A stretch of DNA of 37,308 nt from Candidatus Duberdicusella sinuisediminis (lineage in GTDB: Bacteria > Omnitrophota > Gorgyraeia > Duberdicusellales > Duberdicusellaceae), in the NCBI GenBank assembly GCA_003644445.1, contig QNCG01000004.1, positions 1 to 37,308 on the forward strand, given 5' to 3'. The position numbers and the translations under genes are program-made. Below the pieces are notes generated by a model. It searched no databases. It was not told where the DNA came from and saw nothing but the letters and a program-made list of their open reading frames with translations. Positions 30,063-36,239 of the stretch are shown piece after piece. Within the stretch, counting starts at the first letter, position 1. Every line of letters begins with the position of its first letter.

Positions 30063-31379
30063 ATGTCAGGAGTAGCTAAACAGAAGACAATTAAAAAAGA
30101 AGTAAGTTTAGAAGGGGTAGGCCTTCATACCGGTAAAAATGTTAAGTTAAAATTTTTACCAGCCCCTCCTAATAGTGGAATATTATTTTTTAGAGAAGAT
30201 ACTTCTTCTTTAATAAAGGCGGATTTATATTCTGTTCTTTCTCCGGAGAATTTTCCCCGTCGAACTTCTATTGGTAGAGACGGCGTATATATTCATACTG
30301 TCGAGCACCTTATGGCCGCTCTCTCTATATTAGGAATAGATAATATCCAGATAAATATAACTGGAGAAGAAGTTCCTGGAATGGATGGTAGCGCCAGAGA
30401 TTTTATAGAAAATATAAAAAAGGCAGGGATAGTTGAACAACCTGTTCCTAAAGACTATTTAGTGGTGAGAGAACCTATCTGGGTAGATGAAGGAAGTGCT
30501 GGCTTAGTGATTCTTCCTTATCCGGAATTCAGGATTTCTTATACTTTAGATTACAATAATCCCACTATTTCTACAGATTTTCTAGATGTAGTTCTGGGTC
30601 CTGAGAATATAGATTCTTTAGCGATTGCCAGAACATTTTGTTTGGAGGAGGAAGTTGCCCCTCTTTTAAATATGGGTTTAGGTAAAGGCGCTAATTATTC
30701 TAATACTTTGGTAGTTTCTAAAGAAGGGGTCTTGGAGAATAAGTTAAGAGATGAGGAGGAATTTGTAAAACACAAAGTTTTAGATTTAATTGGAGATTTA
30801 TACTTAGCTGGTCCTCTTAAAGGACATGTTATTGCTTTCCGTAGTGGACACTTGTTAAATATAAAACTACTGACAAAACTGCGAGCCTACAAAGAAAAAG
30901 TTACATCTTCAGGGGTAGGGGCAGTGAGCACTTTTATTCCTTCTCAAGATACCTTAGATGCCTCAGAAATTATGAAGATTCTTCCTCACCGCTATCCTTT
31001 TCTCCTGGTGGATAAGATTATTTATTTAGAGAAGGGTAAAAAAGCAATAGGAATTAAGAACGTTACTATAAATGATTACTTTTTTCAGGGCCATTTTCCT
31101 GACCGGCCAATTATGCCCGGGGTTTTGATTATTGAGGTTATGGCTCAGGTGGGAGGGGTATTAATGCTTTCTCCTCAGGAGAACAGAGGAAAACTCGCTT
31201 ATTTTATGGCTGCTAATAATATAAAATTTAGAAGAACAGTTGAACCGGGAGATCAGTTAGTCATAGAAGTTACTGTAGGAAAAGTAAAGAGTAAAACTGG
31301 CCAAGTTCATACTAAAGCTTTTGTAGATAATAAGGTTGTTGCTGAAGCAGATTTAATGTTTGCTTTAGTCAATCGTTAA
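30063..31379 (+). CDS. lpxC-fabZ: LpxC-FabZ fusion: UDP-3-O-acyl-GlcNAc deacetylase / 3-hydroxyacyl-ACP dehydratase
   Basis: LpxC: GVGLHTGKNVKLKFLPAPPNSGI, HTVEHLMAALSILGIDN, KHKVLDLIGDLYL. FabZ: IMKILPHRYPFLLVDKI...QGHFPDRPIMPGVLIIEVMAQVGG. Confidence 0.95.
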   Translation: MSGVAKQKTIKKEVSLEGVGLHTGKNVKLKFLPAPPNSGILFFREDTSSLIKADLYSVLSPENFPRRTSIGRDGVYIHTVEHLMAALSILGIDNIQINITGEEVPGMDGSARDFIENIKKAGIVEQPVPKDYLVVREPIWVDEGSAGLVILPYPEFRISYTLDYNNPTISTDFLDVVLGPENIDSLAIARTFCLEEEVAPLLNMGLGKGANYSNTLVVSKEGVLENKLRDEEEFVKHKVLDLIGDLYLAGPLKGHVIAFRSGHLLNIKLLTKLRAYKEKVTSSGVGAVSTFIPSQDTLDASEIMKILPHRYPFLLVDKIIYLEKGKKAIGIKNVTINDYFFQGHFPDRPIMPGVLIIEVMAQVGGVLMLSPQENRGKLAYFMAANNIKFRRTVEPGDQLVIEVTVGKVKSKTGQVHTKAFVDNKVVAEADLMFALVNR

Positions 31380-33453: not shown

Positions 33454-33488
33454 TTGACACTATGCTAAAGGGTGGTTTTTTGACACTA
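33454..33488 (+). repeat. Direct repeat TTGACACTA x2
   Basis: TTGACACTA at 33454-33462 and 33480-33488; the second copy contains the -35 box. Confidence 0.4.
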
Positions 33489-33508
33489 CCTTCTATTTGT
33501 AATATAAT
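33480..33508 (+). promoter_or_regulatory. Perfect consensus sigma70-type promoter
   Basis: TTGACA (33480-33485)-N17-TATAAT (33503-33508), ending 9 nt before ATG 33518. Confidence 0.75.
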
Positions 33509-33517
33509 AAAATAAAA

Positions 33518-33964
33518 ATGTATTCCTTATTTTTAAAAATCTATATCAACCAACCCAAGGCTGAAGACTTATCTTCTATTTGGGAGAATCCTGCTTCTTT
33601 ATTGGAGAAGGCAGATAAGATAAAAACTCTTAAGGTGATTAAGAAAGAGAAAAATAGACTTTACACCCGTTGGGAGGTGGATATAGAAGGAGCTATCCTT
33701 TCTTGGTATGAAGAAGATATTTTAGATAGAGAGAGGGGGCTTATAAATTTTAAGATGCGCAGTGGAGATTTTGGAGATTTTTTTGGTTACTGGAAAATAG
33801 TTCCTACCCGTTGGGGGAAGCTGAGGTTAGAATTCAAAGTAAATTATGATTGGGGCATACCCGTTCTTGAGCCTTATGTAAAAAGAGTTTTAGAGAAGAA
33901 AGCCAGAGTAATGTGGAAAAGTTTTCTCCAGGCTGTAAAGCAAGCTTTAGAAAGTAATGGATAA
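33518..33964 (+). CDS. SRPBCC/START-like (polyketide cyclase / coenzyme Q-binding-like) protein
   Basis: Pattern IWENPASLLEKADKIKTLKVIKKEKNRLYTRWEVDIEGAILSWYEEDILDRERGLINFKMRSGDFGDFFGYWKIVPTRWGKLRLEFKVNYDWGIPVLEPYVKRVLEKKARVMWKSFLQAVK is typical of SRPBCC lipid-binding folds. Confidence 0.7.
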   Translation: MYSLFLKIYINQPKAEDLSSIWENPASLLEKADKIKTLKVIKKEKNRLYTRWEVDIEGAILSWYEEDILDRERGLINFKMRSGDFGDFFGYWKIVPTRWGKLRLEFKVNYDWGIPVLEPYVKRVLEKKARVMWKSFLQAVKQALESNG

Positions 33965-35069
33965 TAAGAAATTAGCAATTCTTATCCATCCTGTAAACCG
34001 GGAGCTTCTCTATTTATATGAACCAGGTATGAGAACTAAATCTATAAGTATAGTAAAGAAGGTTTTGGAATGGATGAGCCCTTTTAAAGCTTCAGATATA
34101 GAAGGGATAAAATCTCAGTATAACGGAAAAGAAGTTAAAGGAGAATTAATAATGTGCCCTTTGCTGGCAGAACAGGTGATTTCTTTAAATCCCCGCAAGA
34201 TATTTTTTAAAGTTAAAAGAGCAGCTAAATTTGCTGAAAGCAGAGGTGCAAATTTGTTAGGTTTAGTTGCTTATACAGCTTTAGTGGGAGAAAAAGGCTT
34301 AAAGCTTAAAGAGCATTTGAATATCCCAATGACTACCGGGCATCATTTAACTATCGCTACTCTACCTGAAGCTGTATTAAGAGCTTTAAGAGAAGCCCAC
34401 TATAATTTAGAAGAAATGATTTTTCTTATTTTTGGTTTAAATCCCCTTTCTTTTTTCTTAGTTTCAAAATTAGGAAATTCTGCAAAGAAGATTTATATAT
34501 ACTCTCAAAATAGAGAAAAATTTAAAAAGATAAAGAGTTTACTTCCTTTAAGATTGAAGAAGAAAGTAGAACCTATTGGCAGTAGATTTAAATATATCCT
34601 TAAGTGGGTCAACTTTATAGCAGTAACTACTAACAGAATTCCTTCTGAGTTTAATTTAGAATATTTGAGAAAGGGCACGATAATTCTTGATACTTCCTAT
34701 CCTCGCAAGATAGTTCCATTAAGAAAAGATGTTTTGGTAATAGATGGCGTAGCCATGAAGCCTCCGGGTGAACCTAAGTTCAATTTTAATTTTGGCCTCC
34801 CTGAGGGTTTGTGTTTTCCTTGTATAGCTGAGCCCCTAACTCTATTTTTAGAAGATAGATTTGAGAGTTATTCTTTAGGTAAAGATTTTTTCTCAGAGAA
34901 GGCTGAGGAGATTTTCCGGTTGTCTTTAAGGCACGGTTTTCAGATAGAAGCCTTAACTAGTAGAGACTATTTAATTCCTCAGGAAAGAATTTTAGAATTT
35001 AAAGAGAGTATCCGCAGAAAAGAAAGAAGTCTCTTTTTCTTAAAAAGATGGTTAGGCCTAAAAAATTAA
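33957..35069 (+). CDS. Acyl-ACP reductase (AAR)-like protein
   Basis: Resembles cyanobacterial AAR: AAKFAESRGANLLGLVAYTALVGEKGLKLKEHLNIPMTTGHHLT; FPCIAEPLTLFLEDRFE (Cys matching the AAR active-site FACFAEAM motif); SLRHGFQIEAL. Overlaps the upstream gene (ATGGATAA). Confidence 0.68.
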   Translation: MDNKKLAILIHPVNRELLYLYEPGMRTKSISIVKKVLEWMSPFKASDIEGIKSQYNGKEVKGELIMCPLLAEQVISLNPRKIFFKVKRAAKFAESRGANLLGLVAYTALVGEKGLKLKEHLNIPMTTGHHLTIATLPEAVLRALREAHYNLEEMIFLIFGLNPLSFFLVSKLGNSAKKIYIYSQNREKFKKIKSLLPLRLKKKVEPIGSRFKYILKWVNFIAVTTNRIPSEFNLEYLRKGTIILDTSYPRKIVPLRKDVLVIDGVAMKPPGEPKFNFNFGLPEGLCFPCIAEPLTLFLEDRFESYSLGKDFFSEKAEEIFRLSLRHGFQIEALTSRDYLIPQERILEFKESIRRKERSLFFLKRWLGLKN

Positions 35070-35710
35070 GAGTTTTAGTTACTGCTGGCCCAACCTGGGT
35101 GAGGATTGACAGAGTAAGAGTTCTTACTAACTTGTTTAGTGGAAGAACAGGGTTTTTGATTGCTAAGTTTTTAAAAGATAAAGGTTTTCCTACTACTTTA
35201 CTTTTAGGCCCCGCCAGATTTATATCTGAAGCTAAGGGATTAAACCTTATAAGGTTTAAGTATTTTGAAGAATTAAGGAGCTTAATTAAGAAGGAATTAA
35301 AAGGTAGAGCTTATAAAGTAGTCATTCATTCAGCAGCGGTCTCTGATTATAAACCTCTTAAGGTTTATAAAGGGAAAATTTCTTCTTCTCAAGATAGGCT
35401 CTTAATAGAACTTAAACCTACTCCCAAGATAATAAAGGAGATAAGGAGGATAAGACCAGATATATATCTTATCCAGTTTAAATTAGAGGTAGGTGAGACA
35501 AAGAATAAGTTAATAGACAAAGCTTATAAGAGCTTGTTAGAGAACAATTCAGATTTAGTTGTAGCTAACGATTTAAAAGATATAAGGGGTTCAGGTCATA
35601 GAGCTTACTTAATCGATAGAGAGAAGAATGTAGAAGTAATAAGGGGAAGAAGAGATTTAGCCCAGAAATTATTTAGAGTAGTAAAAAAATTAGGGAGGGA
35701 AAATGTCTAA
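35048..35710 (+). CDS. coaB: Stand-alone phosphopantothenoylcysteine synthetase-like (CoaB)
   Basis: LRVLVTAGPTWVRIDRVRVLTNLFSGRTGFLIAKFLKDKGF, SAAVSDYKP, SDLVVANDLKDIRGSGHRAYLID. Confidence 0.82.
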   Translation: MVRPKKLRVLVTAGPTWVRIDRVRVLTNLFSGRTGFLIAKFLKDKGFPTTLLLGPARFISEAKGLNLIRFKYFEELRSLIKKELKGRAYKVVIHSAAVSDYKPLKVYKGKISSSQDRLLIELKPTPKIIKEIRRIRPDIYLIQFKLEVGETKNKLIDKAYKSLLENNSDLVVANDLKDIRGSGHRAYLIDREKNVEVIRGRRDLAQKLFRVVKKLGRENV

Positions 35711-36239
35711 GAAGATTATTTTAGGGATTACCGCTTCAGTCAGTATTTATAAGAGTTGTTCTTTAATAAGGATTTTAAAAAAAGAAGCTCATCTCATTAA
35801 AGTGATAATGACTCCTAATTCTACTAAACTTATTTCTTCTCAGCTTTTAGAAAGTCTAACTCAGGATAAGGTCTATGTAGATATGTTTTCTAATTATCAA
35901 TATTCTTTAGAGCATATCTCCTTAGCTAAATGGGCTGAAGTTTCTCTAATAATTCCTGCTTCAGCTAATACTTTGGCTAAATTAGCCTGGGGTTTAGCAG
36001 ACAACCTTTTGACTTCTACTTTCCTGGCTTTACCTTCTTCTCTGCCTAAAATTTTAGCCCCGGCTATGAATACTAATATGTGGAAGAACCCCTTAACTCA
36101 GAGAAATGTCAAAATACTCAAAGAATGTGGGTTTAAAATAATCCCACCTAAAAAAGGAGTTTTGGCTTCAGGAGAGGTAGGAGAAGGAGCCTTGGCTAAC
36201 TTAGAAGATATCTTAAAAACTCTTAAGCCTTATCTTTAA
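35703..36239 (+). CDS. coaC: Stand-alone phosphopantothenoylcysteine decarboxylase-like flavoprotein (CoaC)
   Basis: ILGITASVSIYKSCSLIRILKK, EHISLAKWAEVSLIIPASANTLAKLAWGLADNLLTST, LAPAMNTNMWKNP, ASGEVGEGALA. Confidence 0.88.
   Translation: MSKKIILGITASVSIYKSCSLIRILKKEAHLIKVIMTPNSTKLISSQLLESLTQDKVYVDMFSNYQYSLEHISLAKWAEVSLIIPASANTLAKLAWGLADNLLTSTFLALPSSLPKILAPAMNTNMWKNPLTQRNVKILKECGFKIIPPKKGVLASGEVGEGALANLEDILKTLKPYL

Follow-up and report, generated by a model that had tools for sequence, protein, structure and literature searches.

A pair of overlapping genes in Candidatus Duberdicusella sinuisediminis (Omnitrophota), encoding an SRPBCC lipid-binding protein and a protein related to fatty acyl-ACP reductase (AAR) and PigE, probably represents a derived form of a conserved two-protein module that combines an acyl-thioester/aldehyde enzyme with a lipid-holding protein. 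The pair lies in a 37,308-nucleotide stretch of contig QNCG01000004.1, referred to here as the window. Its branch probably captures acyl thioesters, with the hydride step changed or lost. This reading is built on computed evidence, i.e., protein family, predicted fold, a conserved cysteine, loss of a loop, pairing and fusion, gene neighbors and purifying selection. The strongest new facts are a phylum-scale partnership between SRPBCC proteins and thioester reductases, and an NADPH loop that was selectively lost in the window branch.

Nearly all sampled Armatimonadota, and about one fifth of the sampled Omnitrophota genomes, encode an acyl-thioester/aldehyde enzyme together with a lipid-holding partner. 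The pairing points to a lipid, amine or signal yet to be found in these two little-studied phyla. The natural SRPBCC-reductase fusion may be of use in fatty-aldehyde or fatty-amine chemistry, and the window subclade, as a natural experiment, can show what becomes of AAR function once the NADPH loop is lost.

Locus, families and predicted folds

The two genes belong to a run of four on one strand of a 1.2 Mb genome (Table 1), with overlaps of 8 bp (SRPBCC/AAR-like), 22 bp (AAR-like/CoaB) and 8 bp (CoaB/CoaC). The promoter is the only exact match to TTGACA-N17-TATAAT in the window, against 0.01 expected from shuffled sequences. The first-pass annotation had described a perfect promoter followed by four overlapping genes, and the promoter, reading frames and overlaps were all as described. 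The gene order and overlaps, and a promoter with the identical 17-bp spacer, are also found in a genus-mate, Candidatus Omnitrophota AUK132 (G001). In both genomes only about 9 bp separate TATAAT from the ATG (33503-33520 in the window). The message is probably near-leaderless, because transcription would start only a few bases away from the ATG.

In the window (35048-36239), CoaB and CoaC are encoded separately and the CoaB gene precedes that of CoaC, opposite to the order in the usual CoaBC fusion. At 30063-31379, within a run of lipid A genes, a single 438-aa ORF appears to encode LpxC followed by a FabZ-like domain.

Table 1. Features of the four-gene run (window coordinates)
Feature	Position	Strand	Basis or remark
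Sigma-70 consensus promoter, TTGACA-N17-TATAAT	33480..33508	+	12/12 exact; ends 9 bp before ATG
SRPBCC / START-like lipid-binding protein, 148 aa	33518..33964	+	Pfam PF03364, AF2 model
ATGGATAA, stop-start overlap of SRPBCC and AAR-like genes	33957..33964	+	
AAR/PigE-type thioester-reductase-like protein, 370 aa	33957..35069	+	NCBIfam PigE, TIGR04058, AF2 + Foldseek
Degenerate dinucleotide loop, residues 160-166 GLNPLSF (GLN-PLSF)	34434..34454	+	Aligned to SeAAR 162-GATGDIG-168
CFPC, clade-typical CxPC motif; Cys289 = SeAAR catalytic Cys294; extra Cys286	34812..34823	+	Alignment
Stand-alone CoaB (phosphopantothenate-cysteine ligase), 220 aa	35048..35710	+	Pfam DFP 4.7e-38; NCBIfam coaB-type models
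Stand-alone CoaC (phosphopantothenoylcysteine decarboxylase), 178 aa	35703..36239	+	Pfam Flavoprotein 2e-31; TIGR02113 1.3e-58

A search of PHROGs gave no matches. The initial assignment of the first protein to SRPBCC agrees with both its Pfam score and its predicted fold. It matches Polyketide_cyc (PF03364) at 3.5e-10, with 40.6 bits against a gathering score of 23.4. An AlphaFold2 model built from four sequences (pLDDT 84, pTM 0.79) has TTHA0849 (2d4r) as its best PDB match (TM 0.87), followed by polyketide aromatase/cyclases, and 2d4r is the only PDB match of the family profile (2.7e-25).

The AAR-like protein has no Pfam match. It matches NCBIfam PigE at 3.4e-31 and 108 bits (curated cut-off 850) and TIGR04058 (AcACP_reductase) at 2.5e-6 and 27.1 bits, far short of the curated cut-off of 449.7. 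Its AlphaFold2 model (pLDDT 80.9, pTM 0.80; each protein was modeled singly, from sequences of the window and of related loci) has the three-domain AAR fold, with cyanobacterial AAR 6jzy first in Foldseek (E 3.5e-18, TM 0.66/0.71), and the family profile finds PigE 4ppm (1.7e-61) and AAR 6jzq (3.8e-58). The likeness to AAR had first been recognized by eye from conserved motifs; TTGHHLT, CFPCIAE and SLRHGFQ are all present, and NCBIfam, profile and Foldseek searches support the AAR/PigE family and fold.

The first reading had seen no obvious alkane pathway nearby. ADO (PF11266) was detected in 0 of 58 genomes (the window's own and 57 relatives), with S. elongatus positive as control, and an alkane pathway was therefore rejected. 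One clear aldehyde dehydrogenase is present in the window's genome. The dinucleotide loop GATGDIG of AAR is found in fused and Armatimonadota relatives and is absent from the window protein. We do not claim AAR membership for the window protein, because the loop, a score above the cut-off and an ADO partner were all looked for and none was found.

Partnership and gene neighborhoods in two phyla

Single-protein searches of 58 relatives revealed SRPBCC fused to AAR as one protein of about 525 aa in many genomes. A contig scan with a single window protein as query yielded only four loci, and the survey was based on genome searches instead. Among 383 Omnitrophota genomes at least 80% complete, there were 78 strong SRPBCC matches in 77 genomes, of which 59 were fused to an AAR-like domain and 15 directly adjoined one (74 of 78 in all); two of the four unpaired matches run off contig ends. 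AAR was present in 138 of 149 Armatimonadota genomes, and SRPBCC stood beside it in 29 of 30 loci inspected. The dedicated partnership suggested in the first pass is thus conserved in both phyla, often as a fusion in Omnitrophota, and the notion that the adjacency is unique to this genome was rejected. No description of SRPBCC together with an acyl-ACP or thioester reductase was found in the literature searched, with subscription journals mostly outside the search.

At several loci (L097, L107, L108, L120, L127 and L133), a second AAR-like gene that has lost the catalytic Cys (e.g., PASLAE) lies beside SRPBCC-AAR; these are possibly non-catalytic partners. Elsewhere (L049:10652-12256 and L051:9287-10834), the AAR-like domain is preceded by about 150 aa of a different, non-SRPBCC extension.

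In 20 longer Armatimonadota loci, the gene order is class-III aminotransferase, SRPBCC, AAR, a protein of about 306 aa, GreA and often LysS. The aminotransferase, PigE-like in all 20, has PigE as its best family (1.7e-131), and the operon therefore resembles an unfused PigE plus SRPBCC. A PigE-like aminotransferase also adjoins two Omnitrophota AARs; no aminotransferase is found next to the window pair. In PigE, a thioester is reduced and the resulting aldehyde is transaminated (PMC8341465). TamH converts acyl thioesters to amines by means of a thioester reductase and a transaminase (PMC9594044), and KecF is a further thioester reductase-aminotransferase precedent (PMC6498172). In light of the PigE and TamH precedents, the Armatimonadota operon is best read, from its protein families, as a route from acyl thioester through aldehyde to amine. 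The protein of about 306 aa directly follows AAR in 20 of 20 loci (L195:6943-7860, + strand, and homologs) and belongs to no Pfam or NCBIfam family.

The typical Omnitrophota order is a PlsC-like acyltransferase, SRPBCC-AAR, a 7TM-GAF histidine kinase and a response regulator. PlsC lies at most 4 ORFs upstream in 24 of 52 SRPBCC loci. Frequent additional neighbors are ketosynthase, FabG, FabZ, ACP, GMC oxidoreductase, methyltransferase, LuxD-like acyltransferase and a second AAR-like gene. In a sample of 30 genomes picked for carrying the pair, a 7TM histidine kinase was located within 8 kb on the same strand in 25, against 0.2 expected by random placement. The kinase family averages only about three members per genome, so this enrichment is not due to abundance.

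It is conceivable, though we hold the idea only tentatively, that the Omnitrophota module serves lipid cell-cell signaling: its product would be a signal derived from a fatty aldehyde or amine, and the linked 7TM histidine kinase and response regulator would read it. The kinase enrichment favors this, as do a kinase start that often overlaps and neighbors that include the response regulator, acyltransferase, ketosynthase, FabG, FabZ, ACP, methyltransferases, LuxD-like acyltransferase and alpha-oxoamine synthases. However, the kinase likewise resembles PrsK of PEP-CTERM systems and may sense envelope state, and no kinase of this kind lies alongside the pair in the window or in G001.

The only 7TM kinase of this type in the window's genome is on another contig, G000:C13 (L143:8631-13874), in the order HTH_17, ketosynthase, ACP, serine-palmitoyltransferase-like protein (3.4e-143) and 7TM histidine kinase. 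At L145:4361-6499 (- strand), SRPBCC is fused to a LuxD-like acyltransferase plus methyltransferase, and two 7TM histidine kinases follow. A PhcB-like 3-OH-fatty-ester quorum signal was considered and dropped: the recurrent methyltransferase beside the kinases was PhcB-like at first sight, but no NCBIfam or Pfam model agreed.

Altered dinucleotide loop of the window subclade

In the cyanobacterial enzyme SeAAR, the acyl group is taken by C294 and an NADPH step follows; NADPH is held by the loop 162-GATGDIG-168 and three arginines, in a cleft shared with CoA (PMC7089970). The window protein keeps the catalytic cysteine (Cys289), the first loop glycine, TTGxxxT, the tyrosine of YP (SYPR) and RHGFQ. 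Two of the three loop glycines are missing, one loop residue is deleted, and Gln occupies the position of SeAAR R189. This absence of GxxGxxG was missed in the first reading.

Among 74 aligned AAR-like stretches, GxxGx(I/V)G is kept in nearly all fused forms; it is present in 30 of 30 Armatimonadota forms. In an IQ-TREE phylogeny of 78 rows, the window protein groups with those of G001, G007, G177, G090, G163 and G146 on a long stem (support 100/100). The second loop glycine is missing in all seven of these members, and the third is also gone in the window, G001 and G007, as well as in G009, which was seen in a separate alignment; the same four share the one-residue deletion. Loss of both later glycines is confined to this subclade. 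A cysteine at -3, giving CxPC, is present in six of the seven tree members and in G009, and paired cysteines occur elsewhere in one fused row.

Between the window and G001, dN/dS is 0.19 for the AAR-like gene, 0.22 for the SRPBCC gene and 0.16 for the loop region. The AAR-like gene is therefore maintained, and the loop change is a derived state under selection rather than decay. Of the earlier proposal of an acyl-thioester reductase, the AAR/PigE fold and family stand, whereas reduction with NADPH by the window protein does not follow, GxxGxxG being lost in its subclade. Given the loop loss and the new CxPC, "reductase" is unproven for the window copy, and with two loop glycines missing and Gln for R189 its reducing activity may be nil. 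An AAR/PigE-like acyl-enzyme working remains likely. Since the cysteine and fold are under selection despite the missing NADPH loop, the branch probably still captures acyl thioesters, with its hydride step changed or lost.

The window pair might instead still be an ordinary NADPH-dependent acyl-thioester reductase, with GLNPLSF being a sequence that the Rossmann turn tolerates. We regard this as unlikely: the retained first glycine, TTGxxxT, catalytic Cys and SYPR tyrosine, the intact predicted fold and the strong purifying selection would all fit, but every subclade member departs from GxxGxxG, four of them (the window, G001, G007 and G009) have neither of the later glycines and are one residue short, and the window has Gln at the R189 equivalent. 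A broader scheme, which we think doubtful, joins a phylum-wide undescribed lipid signaling cassette, in which the fatty-aldehyde-derived product of the SRPBCC-AAR fusion is sensed by the co-encoded 7TM histidine kinase, with the CoaB-linked window subclade as a side branch where thiol (CxPC) chemistry on the acyl-enzyme took the place of NADPH reduction. A thiol-based step in this subclade is only a guess.

The first-pass annotation had also grouped the pair with CoA synthesis. This holds within the window subclade, where CoaB or CoaC directly follows AAR in five of the seven tree members (window/G001, G177, G163 and G146), and fails for the family as a whole, whose neighbors are instead the 7TM histidine kinase and PlsC (Omnitrophota) and the PigE-like aminotransferase (Armatimonadota). 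A functional link, by which the module depends on or regulates the supply of CoA/4'-phosphopantetheine, seems improbable to us. The arrangement recurs in three Omnitrophota families (window/G001, G177 and G163/G146), mostly with overlapping genes, but it is limited to one subclade, is absent in G007, G009 and G090, was found directly downstream of no AAR outside the subclade, and could be inherited gene order.

It is hardly credible that the AAR-like gene encodes another oxidoreductase, of the glutamyl-tRNA reductase or shikimate dehydrogenase families that the first reading had named for checking, or is a decaying pseudogene, since relatives give only weak Rossmann-level matches to HemA/AroE, structure and profiles put AAR/PigE many orders of magnitude ahead (shikimate dehydrogenase, at 5.5e-6 in Foldseek, trails 6jzy by about twelve), and the low dN/dS and the intact frame in G001 argue against decay; both were rejected.

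A candidate route and its relation to known systems

For the favored reading, a two-protein acyl-thioester/aldehyde module, the features above lead us to infer the substrate, the channeling, the nature of the product (amine or lipid) and a changed chemistry in the window branch. The AAR/PigE-type enzyme would take up acyl groups carried by ACP or CoA, binding them to its cysteine. In most members, NAD(P)H would reduce the acyl-enzyme to an aldehyde. SRPBCC would bind the hydrophobic chain, acyl or aldehyde, and deliver it to whichever enzyme acts next, in the way that ADO receives aldehyde from AAR. In Armatimonadota, the adjacent PigE-like aminotransferase would turn the aldehyde into an amine; in Omnitrophota, lipid-tailoring enzymes encoded beside the 7TM sensor kinase would use it. 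The product could differ between lineages. In the window subclade, thioester capture was probably kept and the hydride step changed or lost.

The SRPBCC protein shares its fold and hydrophobic-pocket architecture with TTHA0849-type SRPBCC proteins and the bacterial aromatase/cyclases ZhuI and TcmN. It differs from these in adjoining a thioester reductase (to which it is fused in relatives), and the window has no polyketide synthase.

Cyanobacterial AAR (TIGR04058; SeAAR, 6jzq/6jzy) has in common with the AAR-like protein the three-domain fold, the catalytic Cys, TTGxxxT, YP and RHGFQ, as well as a partner to which the product would pass. In contrast, the partner here is SRPBCC rather than ADO, the loop is lost in the window subclade, and the score is 27 versus 450 bits.

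PigE, TamH and KecF form the closest sequence family, and both of their activities are represented in the Armatimonadota operon, there as separate genes. The SRPBCC partner is new relative to these enzymes, the window has no adjacent aminotransferase, and the match is 108 bits against a cut-off of 850. The acyl-to-aldehyde logic is also that of the LuxCDE fatty-acid reductase, and G050 has SRPBCC fused to a LuxD-like acyltransferase, which in G182 lies next to an SRPBCC-AAR fusion. No luciferase came to notice, and unlike in LuxCDE, the reductase here is of the AAR/PigE type.
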